DNA from: Sulfitobacter litoralis
GTDB lineage: Bacteria; Pseudomonadota; Alphaproteobacteria; Rhodobacterales; Rhodobacteraceae
DNA length: 64,000 nt
NCBI RefSeq assembly: GCF_900103185.1
Contig: NZ_FNJD01000015.1
Location: 1-64,000 of the forward strand
Direction: 5' to 3'
Shown: one piece after another, positions 45,328-49,835 of the stretch
Position numbering within the stretch: the stretch's first letter is position 1
How the letters are laid out: each line of letters begins with the position of its first letter
The notes under the pieces: generated by a model
What the model was told of the DNA's origin: nothing
Databases searched by the model: none
Seen by the model: only the letters and a program-made list of their open reading frames with translations
Position numbers and translations under genes: made by a program

Positions 45328-46866
45328 ATGGATAAGTTGGTAGACCTCTCAAATGCGACGCTCGGCGATCTTGATATCGTCCGGCCCACCTATGATCGCA
45401 GCGCGCTGACGCCTGGCATTGTCCATATCGGCGTCGGCAACTTCCACCGTGCCCATCAGGCGTGGTATCTACACAGGTTGATGCAGATCGGTCAGGCGCA
45501 TGATTGGGCGATCCTTGGTGCGGGCGTGCGTCCCTATGATGCGGCCATGCGTGAAAAGCTTCTGGCGCAGGATTGCCTGACAACGCTGATTGAACTCGAC
45601 CCTGCGCAAACCTCGGCAGAGGTTGTAGGATCGATGATCGATTACCTCCCGATCGAGGACGGCAACGGTGCGCTTATCCGGGCTATGGCCGATCCGGCTA
45701 TTCGCATCGTCGGACTGACGGTGACCGAAAGCGGCTATTACATTGATCCGGTGAGCAAGGGGTTCGACGCGTCCCATACCGATATCGTCCATGACGCTGC
45801 GAACCCTGAAACCCCGCGCACGGCCTTTGGGGCCATTGTCGCCGCACTCTGTCTGCGGCGCGGTGCGGGGCAGGGGCCGTTCACGGGGCTGAGTTGCGAC
45901 AACCTGCAAGGCAACGGCGATATCCTACGACAAACCGTCGTGTCCCTTGCACGGATGTCGGACCCGTCGCTGGCTGATTGGATTGACGCGAACGCCAGTT
46001 TCCCCAACTCCATGGTCGATTGCATCGCCCCGGCCACCGGCCCTGCCGAGATTGCGCAGGCGCGGGAGTTCGGCGTGAACGACGCGGCTCCGGTGACGCA
46101 TGAAGCTTTCCGCCAATGGGTGATCGAAGACGATTTTTGCGCAGGCCGCCCCGATTGGGACAAGGTGGGCGCAACCTTTTCGGACGACGTCCATGCTTAT
46201 GAGAAAATGAAGATCCGCATTCTCAACGCGGGCCATCAGATTTTGGCGAATGTTGGTGAAGTACTGGGGATCGAGACGATCTCTGGCTGTATGACACATC
46301 CAGCGATCCGCGCGATGTTCCACCGTGTGCAGGCTGACGAGATCACACAGACAGTTGCCCCTGTGCCCGGCATGATGCCGCTGACATATCTGGAGTTGAT
46401 TGAGCAGCGCTTCTCTAATCCGCGCATTGTCGACACCACCCGCCGCGTCGCTTTCGACGGATCGGCGCGGCACGCAGGTTTCGTTCTTCCGATCCTACGC
46501 GATCAATTGGCCGCAGGTCGGTCGGTTGCCGGTCTGGCCTTGGTCGAAGCATTCTGGGCCCGAATGTGCGCAGGCACGCGGGAAGACGGCAGCGAGATCG
46601 TGCCAAACGATCCGATTTGGGACGCATTGCGCCCTGTTGCCGAAGCTGCGCGTACGCGCCCTGCGGCGTGGCTGGAGCAAGCGCGTCCCTACGGTGATCT
46701 GGCGCAGGCCGAGGACTTTAGCGCTGCGTTTTCCGATTGGCTTTCATTGATATGGGCAGAGGGGGCTGTCGCCGCGATGAACACCTATACATCGGCCGAC
46801 AACCAAGATGGACGGGTTCAACCTGACAGGCCTCAAAGATCGAGGTCGACCCACACCGGCACGTGA
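45328..46866 (+). CDS. mtlK: Mannitol 2-dehydrogenase (long-chain polyol dehydrogenase)
   Basis: 512 residues from ATG 45328 with AAGGA upstream. It is a NAD-dependent zinc-free dehydrogenase that oxidises D-mannitol to D-fructose. PGIVHIGVGNFHRAHQAWY is the nucleotide-binding start. VGLTVTESGYYID, VSCDNLQGNG-type (SCDNLQGNGD) and YEKMKIRILNAGHQILANVG with the catalytic Lys are conserved. The C-terminus carries about 20 extra residues (SADNQDGRVQPDRPQRSRST) compared with related enzymes of about 480-495, and this tail overlaps the end of the convergent exonuclease gene by 34 bases. The stop may have been shifted. Otherwise it looks functional. Confidence 0.9.
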   Translation: MDKLVDLSNATLGDLDIVRPTYDRSALTPGIVHIGVGNFHRAHQAWYLHRLMQIGQAHDWAILGAGVRPYDAAMREKLLAQDCLTTLIELDPAQTSAEVVGSMIDYLPIEDGNGALIRAMADPAIRIVGLTVTESGYYIDPVSKGFDASHTDIVHDAANPETPRTAFGAIVAALCLRRGAGQGPFTGLSCDNLQGNGDILRQTVVSLARMSDPSLADWIDANASFPNSMVDCIAPATGPAEIAQAREFGVNDAAPVTHEAFRQWVIEDDFCAGRPDWDKVGATFSDDVHAYEKMKIRILNAGHQILANVGEVLGIETISGCMTHPAIRAMFHRVQADEITQTVAPVPGMMPLTYLELIEQRFSNPRIVDTTRRVAFDGSARHAGFVLPILRDQLAAGRSVAGLALVEAFWARMCAGTREDGSEIVPNDPIWDALRPVAEAARTRPAAWLEQARPYGDLAQAEDFSAAFSDWLSLIWAEGAVAAMNTYTSADNQDGRVQPDRPQRSRSTHTGT

Positions 46867-47615
46867 TCTGACGGTTTCTCACGTCCGCGCACATCCTTGT
46901 CGATCTGGCAATCGCGCAGACTGTCGGCGATGGCGGGGCTCAGCAAGAAATGATCAATGCGGATGCCGTTGTTGCGGTTCCACGCACCTGCTTGATAATC
47001 CCAAAAGCTGTAGTGCCCCGGCCCTTGGGTCCGCGCACGAAAGGCCTCTGTCAGGCCAAGCGCCAGCAAGCGTCGCCATGCGGCACGGGATTCCGGGCGA
47101 AACAACGCATCTTCGCGCCATGCGTCCGGCGTGGCCGCATCTTCGGCCTGCGGAATAATGTTGAAATCGCCGGTCAGCAAAAACGGGGTTTCTTCGGCCA
47201 GCAGCGCACGGGCACGGTCTTCTAGGCGCTGCATCCAGGCCAGTTTATAATCATATTTCGGGCCCGGCGCAGGGTTGCCATTGGGCAGATACAGCCCGCA
47301 CAGCCGGACAGATGAATGATCCCCCACAACGGTCGCCTCGATATAGCGGGCCTGGTCGTCGCTGTCGTCACCGGGAAGGCCACGGGTCACATCCTCAAGC
47401 GCCAGCTTTGACAGGATTGCGACGCCGTTAAACGATTTCTGACCGTGGGTTTCGACGTTATAGCCGCGGTCCTCAAAAAGTTCGCGCGGGAAACCTTCAT
47501 CGACGGATTTTATTTCTTGCAGGATGGCGACATCAGGCTGCGCTTCGTCCAGCCATTGGGGCAGGGCATCGATCCGCGCTTTGATTCCGTTGATGTTGAA
47601 CGTGGCGATTTTCAT
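46833..47615 (-). CDS. xth: Exodeoxyribonuclease III
   Basis: 260 residues, apurinic/apyrimidinic endonuclease and 3' exonuclease for base-excision repair. MKIATFNINGIKARIDALPQ, VAILQEIKSVDEGFP (metal Glu), LLTGDFNIIP (catalytic Asp/Asn), YSFWDYQAGAWNRNNGIRID and EKPSDHVPVWVDLDL (Asp-His) are complete. Length fits Xth (about 260). Its 3' end overlaps mtlK. Upstream, a 7-bp dyad lies in the promoter region. Confidence 0.93.
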   Translation of the reverse strand: MKIATFNINGIKARIDALPQWLDEAQPDVAILQEIKSVDEGFPRELFEDRGYNVETHGQKSFNGVAILSKLALEDVTRGLPGDDSDDQARYIEATVVGDHSSVRLCGLYLPNGNPAPGPKYDYKLAWMQRLEDRARALLAEETPFLLTGDFNIIPQAEDAATPDAWREDALFRPESRAAWRRLLALGLTEAFRARTQGPGHYSFWDYQAGAWNRNNGIRIDHFLLSPAIADSLRDCQIDKDVRGREKPSDHVPVWVDLDL

Positions 47616-47976
47616 GACAGCCCCCCTTTATTGGTTCGCGCAGCTATCGCGCATACCGCGATATGGGGCAAGGGGGCTGCGCCGGCTTGGCCGGTTTCCG
47701 CACGCGATTCGGGTGTAGAGCACGCGTTTATCCAAAGGGGGTAGCGTCGTGGCAGGGGCGTGCAGGATAGGTCTTTAAAGTTGTCTCTAATGTGGAGAAG
47801 CCCACGTCGGTTCGCAATTTCAATGGGATCAACAACGTGCCGCATGTGAATGAATTACATCATTAAAATTCGATCTTTTTGACGGCTAGGTTCACGCTGC
47901 GCTGTGGTGATTGATGAGGGACGTGCAGCCTCAGGTTTAGCTACCGATTTCAAAAACCACCTAAAAGGAAGAAAAT
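47616..47976. other. Intergenic region between xth and the repeat-peptide gene
   Basis: This stretch carries the divergent promoters. A perfect dyad TATCGCG-N5-CGCGATA lies at 47645-47663 next to xth. TTGACG at 47879-47884 could be the -35 of the peptide gene, with only a weak -10 (CTGTGG) after 17 bases. AAAAGGAAG (47964-47972) is a good ribosome-binding site for ATG 47977. I see no gene and no RNA of known type. Confidence 0.5.
47645..47663. promoter_or_regulatory. Perfect 7-bp dyad upstream of xth
   Basis: TATCGCG (47645-47651), CATAC and CGCGATA (47657-47663) form a perfect inverted repeat 30 bases before the xth start. Its position suits an operator. The regulator is unknown. Confidence 0.4.
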
Positions 47977-48204
47977 ATGACCGCAATTGCCTACGCCGAA
48001 AACACCCTTCCCTCCAGTCGTGCTGCTGATGCATCGATGCAGCTGGGGGGAGGCACCGGCCTCTATACCACCGGCTTAATTCGTACCGGACGCGACCCGC
48101 ATTGTGGTCACGGGACCGGATTGTTCACCACCGGATTGCAGTCAGAGCTACAGGCAGACCCCATGGCGACCAGGGGGATTAGCGGTCTGTTTACCGCTGG
48201 CTGA
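47977..48204 (+). CDS. Repeat peptide with three G-x-G-L-[Y/F]-T-x-G units, unknown
   Basis: 75 residues. After a 23-residue N-terminal part (MTAIAYAENTLPSSRAADAS) come three imperfect repeats: GTGLYTTGL (26-34), GTGLFTTGL (46-54) and ISGLFTAG (68-75, the C-terminus). Spacers between them are polar (IRTGRDPHCGH, QSELQADPMATR). There is one Cys (C43), no Sec signal and no membrane helix. RBS AAAAGGAAG stands before ATG 47977. A 9-bp hairpin separates it from a 363-residue partner gene. The layout of short repeat peptide, hairpin and large unknown protein resembles modified-peptide precursor loci, but no known modifying enzyme is present. I recall Rhodobacteraceae-specific DUF names for such a pair (DUF6749/DUF6902) but could not verify this. 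Confidence 0.75.
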   Translation: MTAIAYAENTLPSSRAADASMQLGGGTGLYTTGLIRTGRDPHCGHGTGLFTTGLQSELQADPMATRGISGLFTAG

Positions 48205-48217
48205 TACTCCCGTGTCA

Positions 48218-48241
48218 CCCTGCGCCAGAAACGGCGCAGGG
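48218..48241 (+). terminator. Hairpin between repeat-peptide and partner gene
   Basis: CCCTGCGCC (48218-48226), loop AGAAAC and GGCGCAGGG (48233-48241) form a perfect 9-bp stem, 14 bases after the peptide stop and 24 before the partner start. There is no T-run. It probably stabilises the short mRNA or causes partial termination so that the peptide exceeds its partner. Confidence 0.65.
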
Positions 48242-48264
48242 GTAACCAACGAAAAGGGAGTTCT

Positions 48265-49356
48265 ATGTCTAACGTTGTGACACTTTCGTCCGTTCGCGCC
48301 CGCGGTATTGCTGCGAAACACGCCGATATAGCAGCGATCAGCCGCATGTTTGCACAGCAGCGCCGTCGTGCTGGCGATGTGTTCTGGCTAAAGGAAAACG
48401 CCGAATGGCTTGGGGTGTTGGCAAGCTCGAATATGCCAGCGTCGTCGGGTGCCTTGATGCCCTACGCATCCTTTTACGATCAACTGGAGGAAACGATCCG
48501 CTTTTTCCCGCAGTATTACCGTTTTTTCCTGTCGCTGGCCCTCGATCTCGAGGATCTTGGCATGCCCGGAGAGACAGGGCTGCGATTGTCGCACTGGGTC
48601 TCGCGTATGCGCTTGGTCGATGGGGAACTATCCGATCTGCAACGCGCCGAGGCAGAGCGGTTGATCGCACGGCGGATGCCCGTCACCCGAGACGAAACCC
48701 TGCACGCGCGATTGCGCGGCTTTTTTCTGAGATCAGAAAACTTTGTGTTGCCGAATAAAAAGGCATCTTACGATCTCGCGCATATTGTTTTCTACCTGTC
48801 CGATTATGGGCAACGCGATCCGGCGCTGCCTCTGGCGGCAATTGAAAGCCTGACCTTCGCCAGCATTTTGGCCTATCTGGATCAGGATATGGATTTGTTG
48901 GCAGAGCTCTGTGCTGCTTTAAGATTGGCCGGCTCGCCTGCACCCGTATTATGGGAAGACGCTGTCCGTACTGCCGCAAACGCCTGCCAGATCGTGCCGC
49001 ACCACGGGGAGGGGGCGGGCGACGGGTATCATATTTATTTGATGGCCGGCTGGCTGTCGCAGATGGCAGGGGCACCGGCGTTCAGCCAAGCGGTGCCACA
49101 GGGTCCGGTCTCCATCCGCTACGCGCCACCAGAGGGTGCGCTATTGGGGCTATCCGAAGCTCTTTTCAAAATGGGAGACACGCGGCAATCAGATTGGGCG
49201 CGTATGCGTGGGAGGATAATGGCGTCGCTTGCCCCCTCGGCACAAAATATCTTGGCACAGGCAGAGGCGTCCTGCCCGCAGTTCGACGCGTTCTTCGCCC
49301 GCTTCGCCCGGGCACCTGTCAAAATGGGGGAAGGTTCGGCACGCGTGCAGCTTTAA
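48265..49356 (+). CDS. Uncharacterised 363-residue protein paired with the repeat peptide
   Basis: 363 residues, no signal peptide or membrane helix, predicted mostly alpha-helical. I do not recognise a catalytic domain. Noticeable segments are FYDQLEETIRFFPQYYRFFL (70-89), LALDLEDLGMPG (91-102), SYDLAHIVFYLSDYGQ (168-183, a H-x2-FYL-S/T-D-Y/F-G pattern), LTFASILAYLDQDMDLLAEL (196-215) and YHIYLMAGW (255-263). Repeated helical units with conserved His could form an alpha/alpha barrel that binds or modifies the peptide; this is only an idea. RBS AAGGGAG precedes ATG 48265. It is the second gene of a two-gene unit with the repeat peptide and is followed by a short GCTGGC/GCCAGC hairpin (49369-49385). 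Confidence 0.75.
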   Translation: MSNVVTLSSVRARGIAAKHADIAAISRMFAQQRRRAGDVFWLKENAEWLGVLASSNMPASSGALMPYASFYDQLEETIRFFPQYYRFFLSLALDLEDLGMPGETGLRLSHWVSRMRLVDGELSDLQRAEAERLIARRMPVTRDETLHARLRGFFLRSENFVLPNKKASYDLAHIVFYLSDYGQRDPALPLAAIESLTFASILAYLDQDMDLLAELCAALRLAGSPAPVLWEDAVRTAANACQIVPHHGEGAGDGYHIYLMAGWLSQMAGAPAFSQAVPQGPVSIRYAPPEGALLGLSEALFKMGDTRQSDWARMRGRIMASLAPSAQNILAQAEASCPQFDAFFARFARAPVKMGEGSARVQL

Positions 49357-49426
49357 AGCGGCCGCATGCTGGCATGAGGCCAGCCTCCGGCGGGAGTTTA
49401 TTGGGCAAAATGAAACGGGCTGAGTG

Positions 49427-49750
49427 TTAAATTGAGAAGGACGTGCCGCAGCCGCAAGCGCTGGTCGCGTTAGGGTTTTCAATCACGAAACGCGCGCCGA
49501 TCAGTTCTTCGGAGAAGTCGATGACAGCATTGGCAAGGAAGGGCAGCGAAATGCTGTCGACCACGACTTTTTGGCCGGCACCTTCCAGGATCAGGTCGTC
49601 GTCCTTGGGGGCATCGAGCGCGATGTCGTACTGAAAGCCGGAGCAACCGCCGCCTTCTACGGCGACGCGCAGGGCTTTGCCCTCGGCTGCGGCACCGATT
49701 TCGGCAAGGCGGTCAAAGGCGCGCGGGGTGACTTGGGGGGGCAGGTTCAT
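49427..49750 (-). CDS. A-type iron-sulfur carrier protein (HesB/IscA/ErpA family)
   Basis: 107 residues from ATG 49750 (MNLPPQVTPRAFDRLAEIGA), preceded by GGAG; an ATG 14 codons upstream is possible. The three cluster-binding Cys are C36 in VEGGGCSGFQY and C99 and C101 in ATSACGCGTSFSI. Such proteins carry [2Fe-2S] or [4Fe-4S] clusters to target enzymes. The ErpA/IscA subtype is not certain; the single-copy setting next to dgt, away from suf/isc genes, is usual for ErpA-like proteins in Rhodobacteraceae. Divergent from dgt with 85 bases between starts. Confidence 0.88.
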   Translation of the reverse strand: MNLPPQVTPRAFDRLAEIGAAAEGKALRVAVEGGGCSGFQYDIALDAPKDDDLILEGAGQKVVVDSISLPFLANAVIDFSEELIGARFVIENPNATSACGCGTSFSI

Positions 49751-49835
49751 TTTTCGGGCTCCGGGGTGATCGGTTTCCATCTGTCTTGTCATACAATATA
49801 GAAACCCTCAGGACAGGCCACAAGGACCACCGACT

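Follow-up and report, generated by a model that had tools for sequence, protein, structure and literature searches.

We propose that a two-gene unit in 64,000 nucleotides of DNA from Sulfitobacter litoralis (contig NZ_FNJD01000015.1, hereafter the window) encodes a multi-core precursor, like that of a ribosomally synthesized and post-translationally modified peptide (RiPP), together with a DUF6902 protein that would modify it, most likely by C-alpha epimerisation. We give this reading a probability of roughly 50%. An original prediction, made from the letters of the window, had described a repeat-containing peptide of 75 amino acids (aa) beside a larger partner and had likened the pair to peptide-modification or peptide-signalling loci, and our results are consistent with a modified or signalling peptide. 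Both open reading frames (ORFs) proved to have the coordinates and lengths given there when we rechecked them in the sequence. The two genes lie on the + strand, 60 bp apart, in the same apparent operon:

47977..48204, + strand: 75-aa tandem-core precursor peptide, a short diverged member of its family (similarity search; own-genome profile match)
48265..49356, + strand: DUF6902 protein, 363 aa, the proposed peptide-modifying enzyme (PF21843 and PF21836)

Repeat peptides accompany nearly all DUF6902 genes. Our locus set contains 121 distinct loci; L034 is a DUF6895 locus and L047 has only 32 bases upstream, which leaves 119 that could be scored. A repeat peptide is encoded upstream of DUF6902 at 118 of these 119 (automatic scoring of repeats picked up 113, and reading by eye added L001, L040, L045, L098, and L139, whose cores are degenerate). 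Leaving out L034, L046, L047, and L139, we scanned 117 peptides with a profile and found 684 units in 115 of them, with a median of 5 and a maximum of 20 per peptide. (The peptides of L068 and L069 were scored from over-late start codons and have at most one unit each; L045 also has fewer than two.) Units are spaced by 20 or 21 residues in 514 of 569 intervals. Within each repeat of about 20 aa, G-[DE]-x-[TV]-x-[ML] comes first, then a core of five residues and a variable spacer; position 1 is G in nearly all units, position 7 is F in 93%, and position 9 is S or T in 96%. The last detected unit forms the exact C-terminus in 86 of the 115 peptides. We distinguish 41 main core types, among them FSSGS, FTTSM, FTTSC, FTSGS, FTSWS, FVSWS, FPSWS, FTNWC, FCSAS, and MMCCS. 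These loci have the arrangement of a RiPP locus, in that a ribosomal precursor with a leader or recognition segment and a core is genetically linked to its partner, here a predicted enzyme. At two further loci (L137 and L151, from a Rhodobacteraceae metagenome-assembled genome and Roseovarius litorisediminis), DUF6902 has premature stops and the neighbouring repeat peptides are still open. An EamA-like transporter, named by eye from its translation, lies downstream of DUF6902 in L017 and L033.

Peptide and partner also co-occur across genomes. Among 149 genomes of the family Rhodobacteraceae, the peptide profile matched in 42 of the 45 that have DUF6902 and, at the threshold used, in none of the 104 that lack it (Fisher p = 6e-34, a figure that ignores kinship). 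The three DUF6902 genomes that the profile missed are G039 (which carries L046), G099 (L040, where MMCCS repeats were seen by eye), and G139 (at a contig edge). The window's own genome has a single DUF6902 match. A class-wide sample of 289 genomes yielded four matches. Three of these are from Rhodobacteraceae; the fourth is below the DUF6902 cut-off and DUF6895-like, so DUF6902 is hardly found outside the family.

The peptide in the window has two clear repeats, at residues 26 (GTGLYTTG) and 46 (GTGLFTTG). The third of the three repeats that had been described does form the exact C-terminus, but as ISGLFTAG (residues 68-75, in the context R-G-I-S-G-L-F-T-A-G) it departs from the G-[T/S]-G-L pattern. 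The units are:

48046..48078, + strand: repeat unit 1, GGGTGL-YTTGL (from the sequence)
48106..48138, + strand: repeat unit 2, GHGTGL-FTTGL (from the sequence)
48172..48201, + strand: repeat unit 3, degenerate, RGISGL-FTAG, reaching the C-terminus (from the sequence)

When the residues of the peptide were shuffled 200,000 times, the motif [TS]GL[YF]T[TA]G appeared once in 14 shuffles and two or more times in none. The N-terminus does not look like a signal peptide by eye (judged without a predictor), as had been claimed. A search of a protein database listed 13 proteins with E from 4.4e-41 to 1.4e-5; direct matches are few because the peptide family diverges fast. Within its own genome the peptide was matched by profile A3, which includes the window peptide itself, with E of 4.3e-20. 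No Pfam or NCBIfam model scored over its cut-off for this peptide, nor any Pfam model for five of its relatives.

The cores are under selection to be identical within a peptide. As the original prediction anticipated, the repeats are conserved and the spacers vary: core identity is 0.92 within a peptide and 0.47 between loci. Between repeats of one peptide, the ratio of nonsynonymous to synonymous substitution rates (dN/dS) is lowest in the core (0.09) and rises to 0.23 for the recognition segment and 0.48 for the spacer. In 1476 of 1682 pairs of units whose cores have the same amino acids, the core DNA differs, so the copies are mostly not recent duplicates and selection keeps the exact core. 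The main core type changes 55 times by parsimony on a DUF6902 tree of 114 tips (which also left out L137, L151, and short proteins). If the core itself is the product, we would expect just this, uniformity within a strain and repeated replacement from one species to another; a species-specific core could act as a signal or an inhibitor. Compared between closely related loci, the whole peptide has dN/dS of 0.04-0.27 in all 11 pairs computed. (12 pairs qualified; L115 is in two pairs and the window peptide is in none.) These low values indicate that the peptide is translated and kept, and on these grounds we rejected the idea of an untranslated ORF; both genes of the unit are under purifying selection. 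Separately, DUF6902 residues that track core type by mutual information were set aside, as kinship was not removed from that comparison.

These patterns also bear on the idea that DUF6902 does not modify the repeats but binds them, as a stoichiometric partner or chaperone, and that the repeat protein works in its intact form, be it as scaffold, store, or metal buffer. Cysteines in some cores (FTTSC, FTNWC, MMCCS) would suit a metal buffer or the like, and the lack of a recognised protease or exporter at the locus and a hairpin that suggests unequal expression of the two genes (see below) also fit. However, a whole-protein scaffold has no obvious need for cores that are alike within a protein and replaced between species. 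The partner also shows enzyme-like invariance, with 58 invariant columns among 65 DUF6902 sequences, many of them charged or polar, and it shares six invariant residues with DUF6895, a family whose own peptides do not seem to resemble the repeat peptides in sequence. We consider a pure binding role quite improbable.

As for DUF6902 itself, it had been reported to have no recognised domain, which is wrong. Residues 1-350 match PF21843 (DUF6902) at 415.4 bits (E = 2.1e-124; gathering cut-off 27 bits), and PF21836 (DUF6895) is a secondary match at 64.3 bits (E = 1.5e-17; cut-off 23.8 bits). Aligning the two profiles with hhalign gave a probability of 96.5 and E of 7.3e-10; judged by these profiles, DUF6902 is a remote relative of DUF6895. 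The segment H-x2-FYLSDYG was rightly picked out as conserved-looking, as H173, Y177, L178, Y181, and G182 never vary among the 65 DUF6902 sequences, and neither do D210 and H256. Across 29 DUF6902 and DUF6895 sequences, six residues are invariant (Y169, H173, D210, E214, Y255, and H256), and most of these fall in three short motifs:

48781..48810, + strand: H173-IVFYLSDYG-182 motif (H173 invariant in 29 DUF6902/DUF6895 sequences)
48892..48906, + strand: D210-LLA-E214 (both invariant in the same 29)
49027..49032, + strand: Y255-H256 (both invariant in the same 29)

The predicted structure is almost all-helical and confident (pLDDT 91.3), and by this model DUF6902 resembles alpha/alpha toroids: its structure neighbours include terpene cyclases, prenyltransferase beta subunits, GH105, and PL5 lyases. 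LanC and N-acylglucosamine 2-epimerase, which we take to be natural alpha/alpha-barrel comparisons, are not among the 50 structure matches listed, and the literature searched gave nothing on a link to N-acylglucosamine 2-epimerase. We found no sequence relatives in the PDB, and NCBIfam searches gave no match for the unit.

DUF6895 genes also lie behind small precursor-like peptides. We read 12 DUF6895 loci by eye (L034, L061, L062, L064, and L185-L192), and eight of them have such a peptide 3-152 bases upstream, whose leader resembles (K)SGILNxxTTLxQLL and whose C-terminal core contains tryptophan. Examples of these cores are GPWYAYHTLEQ (Streptomyces), EWELATKHFLLRG (Pseudalkalibacillus), and LAWDKYVLVVP (Kitasatospora); L062 has two cores, GPWYIYKE and GPWFVLKE, in one peptide. 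Six of the DUF6895-linked peptides had no Pfam or NCBIfam match over cut-off. In L187 and L191 the small upstream ORF differs from the shared-leader type, and L189 and L190 are not among the eight. That DUF6902 and DUF6895 both follow precursor-like peptides, of unrelated sequence, is our strongest argument that both act on peptides.

We also noticed DUF6895 genes after a small ORF, again with a leader of this sort and a core that has Trp, on plasmids of Bacillota and Streptomycetaceae (L185:5638-6909, L186:5747-6825, L188:5438-7467, and L192:2299-4425), and these four loci look like precursor-enzyme pairs of their own, as far as can be told from their sequences. In Streptomyces fungicidicus (L187:4088-6858), two adjacent DUF6895 genes lie behind a 62-aa ORF and another ORF, and a cytochrome P450 precedes the region; in Kitasatospora fiedleri (L191:1611-3591), one DUF6895 gene lies behind a 68-aa ORF and another ORF. 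The small ORFs of both loci contain LLLSP and in both a serine hydrolase follows.

We think it quite likely that DUF6902 modifies the peptide. The small gene would give a cytoplasmic precursor that opens with a short leader at its N-terminus (often M-[TSN]-A-x-x-K). After this come the repeats, in each of which the segment for recognition, G-[DE]-x-[TV]-x-[ML], precedes a core F-x-[ST]-x-x and a spacer that varies. DUF6902 would bind the recognition segments and modify the core of every repeat. The reaction could be inversion at C-alpha by an acid/base set drawn from H173, H256, D210, E214, Y169, and Y255, with two His and two carboxylates doing the chemistry. Our guess at the target is either the conserved aromatic (F for DUF6902 and W for DUF6895) or the last residue of the core. 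The precursor would then be cut by host proteases, which we propose since we recognised neither a protease nor an exporter dedicated to the unit at the locus; excision of the cores has about an even chance of being correct. Epimerisation is tentative, with a chance somewhat below even, and we take it as the likeliest single reaction because of the homology to DUF6895.

A different reaction by the same enzyme on the same precursor, such as Ser/Thr dehydration, hydroxylation, backbone cleavage, or cyclisation, with the invariant His, Asp, and Glu residues holding a metal, is rather unlikely but has some appeal. The most fixed residues of the core are F at 7 and S or T at 9, and the fold neighbours carry out many chemistries. 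On the other hand, the protein has no ATP-binding, S-adenosylmethionine (SAM), or redox domain (only DUF6902 and DUF6895 are over cut-off in Pfam), and the only characterised relative that we met is, going by its title, an epimerase: a cited article by Shi et al. (ACS Catal. 2026; cited in PMC13352647) is titled as describing a DUF6895 epimerase in lasso-peptide modification. That cited title is the one mention of DUF6895 in the open-access literature searched.

Several observations weigh against epimerisation of many cores by DUF6902. The enzymatic role of DUF6902 is a prediction, and the cited epimerase concerns lasso peptides and is known here by its title. DUF6895 sequences are only 13-20% identical to the window protein, so the reaction of DUF6902 may have changed, and in the larger set of 65 DUF6902 sequences E214 and Y255 fall short of strict invariance (at least 90%). 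Nine weaker DUF6895 matches in a gammaproteobacterial sample (L176-L184) had no comparable peptide. Among the features annotated around six annotated plasmid DUF6895 genes, none is named as a lasso gene, and many are "hypothetical protein" (L189 and L190 have no annotation). L046 (3352-4425) is a highly divergent DUF6902 at the usual chromosomal site with no repeat peptide found. The window peptide, with two clean units and one degenerate one, is a weak example that would be unconvincing alone, and across the family the last unit stops 3-9 residues short of the C-terminus in 27 of 115 peptides and 21-23 short in two. Core residues partly track kinship: core positions 8-11 change 15-34 times, as compared to means of 38-54 when shuffled, and the two members of 25 of 41 independent close pairs have a core in common. 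Finally, the missing dedicated protease or exporter counts here as well, though an unlinked one is possible.

The 60-nt spacer between the two genes contains the perfect 9-bp hairpin of the original prediction, and the pairing is exact (48218-48226 with 48233-48241, and a loop of 6):

48218..48241, + strand: 9-bp intergenic hairpin, loop of 6 (spacer fold, and covariation in eight chosen loci)
48207..48211, + strand: CTCCC, predicted outer-stem partner of the DUF6902 ribosome-binding site (minimum-free-energy fold, window only)
48255..48260, + strand: AGGGAG, probable ribosome-binding site of DUF6902 (read from the sequence)

The spacer folds better than shuffled sequences (z = -4.93; 0 of 200 as good). 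We examined covariation in eight loci of Sulfitobacter or Roseobacter type, which were picked by eye for a similar stem, so this test favours structure. In these, 96.3% of cells pair and both sides have changed in 4 of 10 pairs; the number of cells changed on both sides (9) and the covariation score are above all 500 shuffles. Two other measures were reached by shuffles: 55 of 500 had as many pairs changed on both sides, and 417 of 500 as many pair types. Across all loci, the spacer has z < -2 in 31 of 113, with a mean of -0.95. The hairpin probably sets the ratio of precursor to enzyme. The modelled outer stem (48207-48260) can sequester the probable ribosome-binding site, which would couple translation of DUF6902 to that of the peptide. 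A sigma-70 promoter scan of 47600-49450 found only two sites, both within DUF6902, and an Rfam scan of 47600-49500 found no match.

The unit's immediate neighbours in the window are xth, an ErpA-like gene directly after DUF6902, and dGTP triphosphohydrolase (dgt):

46833..47615, - strand: left flank, exodeoxyribonuclease III (xth), outside the unit (TIGR00633/TIGR00195 above cut-off)
49427..49792, - strand: right flank, ErpA-like iron-sulfur protein, outside the unit (TIGR00049 above cut-off)

The ErpA model gives the best score for the right-flank protein, yet is below its own cut-off. A scan of named genomes found 357 stretches that encode relatives, and our site counts rest on 80 of these. 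Both xth and erpA are present in 70 of the 80, in keeping with the description of a unit alone between housekeeping genes. Six of the other ten stretches end at contig edges, and L103, L112, L129, and L146 have one flank gene missing within the stretch. We also examined 12 genomes that lack DUF6902; in 11 of them xth and erpA are no more than 1.5 kb apart, with no unit between them. This fixed site is not how mobile cargo behaves, so that half of the claim of a lineage-conserved, non-mobile function holds up, but only 45 of 149 sampled genomes of the family have DUF6902. The unit looks like an inherited element at one site that was gained once or often lost. Two adjacent genes with such a patchy distribution (45/149 genomes) might also suggest a toxin-antitoxin or phage-defence pair. 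But PADLOC and PHROGs gave no match, we found no relatives of the unit in a viral collection and no DUF6902 in a plasmid search, and the one fixed chromosomal site and the purifying selection on both genes count against such a pair. We view this as very improbable.

Many marine roseobacters carry this pair of a repeat peptide and an enzyme-like protein, and it is probably a machine that makes short modified peptides of a kind not described in the open-access literature searched. More loosely still than for the reaction itself, we suggest that DUF6902 and DUF6895, whose loci we saw in Pseudomonadota, Bacillota, and Actinomycetota, might together make up a superfamily of peptide-modifying enzymes that stand alone and are widespread, and define a class of natural products that is still undescribed. 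A single alpha/alpha-toroid epimerase of the roseobacters might turn every tandem core into a short D-amino-acid peptide, with the core as a species-specific chemical label or signal. If true, two domains that so far lack a function would receive one, and a major group of marine bacteria would have a minimal route to modified peptides that needs only two genes. Finders that are built on known RiPP enzymes would miss the unit, and an array of up to 20 near-identical cores would lend itself to producing a short modified peptide in many copies.

Some known RiPPs have multi-core precursors, such as cyanobactins, some microviridins, and the fungal dikaritins, whose enzymes are ATP-grasp ligases, PatA/PatG proteases, and UstYa oxidases. 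As in our unit, several cores are carried by one precursor and separated by recognition or spacer segments, but none of these enzymes was recognised at DUF6902 loci. The open-access literature searched had no mention of DUF6902, no description of the two-gene unit, and nothing on multicore RiPPs in Rhodobacter or marine alphaproteobacteria or on an epimerase with multiple core peptides. RiPP potential has been described in Sulfitobacter, a genus that also carries the DUF6902 unit, but in the part of that report used here the key enzymes named are DUF692, P450, and an S9 peptidase, not DUF6902 (PMC11278168). The DUF6895 epimerase of the lasso pathway is closer, as it belongs to the same remote homology group with six invariant residues (29 sequences) and has, by its title, a ribosomal peptide as substrate. 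It differs in that DUF6902 is a separate Pfam family whose presumed substrate is a repeat peptide. Our locus does not look like a lasso cluster, as neither an asparagine-synthetase-like lasso cyclase nor a B protein or leader peptidase was seen there and the flanks in the window are xth, the erpA-like gene, and dgt. Lastly, MslH, the epimerase of the lasso peptide MS-271, has a calcineurin-like fold with Ca(II) and two His/Asp pairs (PMC10406935), whereas DUF6902 is predicted to be almost all-helical; the logic that we propose for DUF6902 is like that of MslH, with acid/base chemistry inverting a residue of a ribosomal peptide at the C-terminus or close to it.
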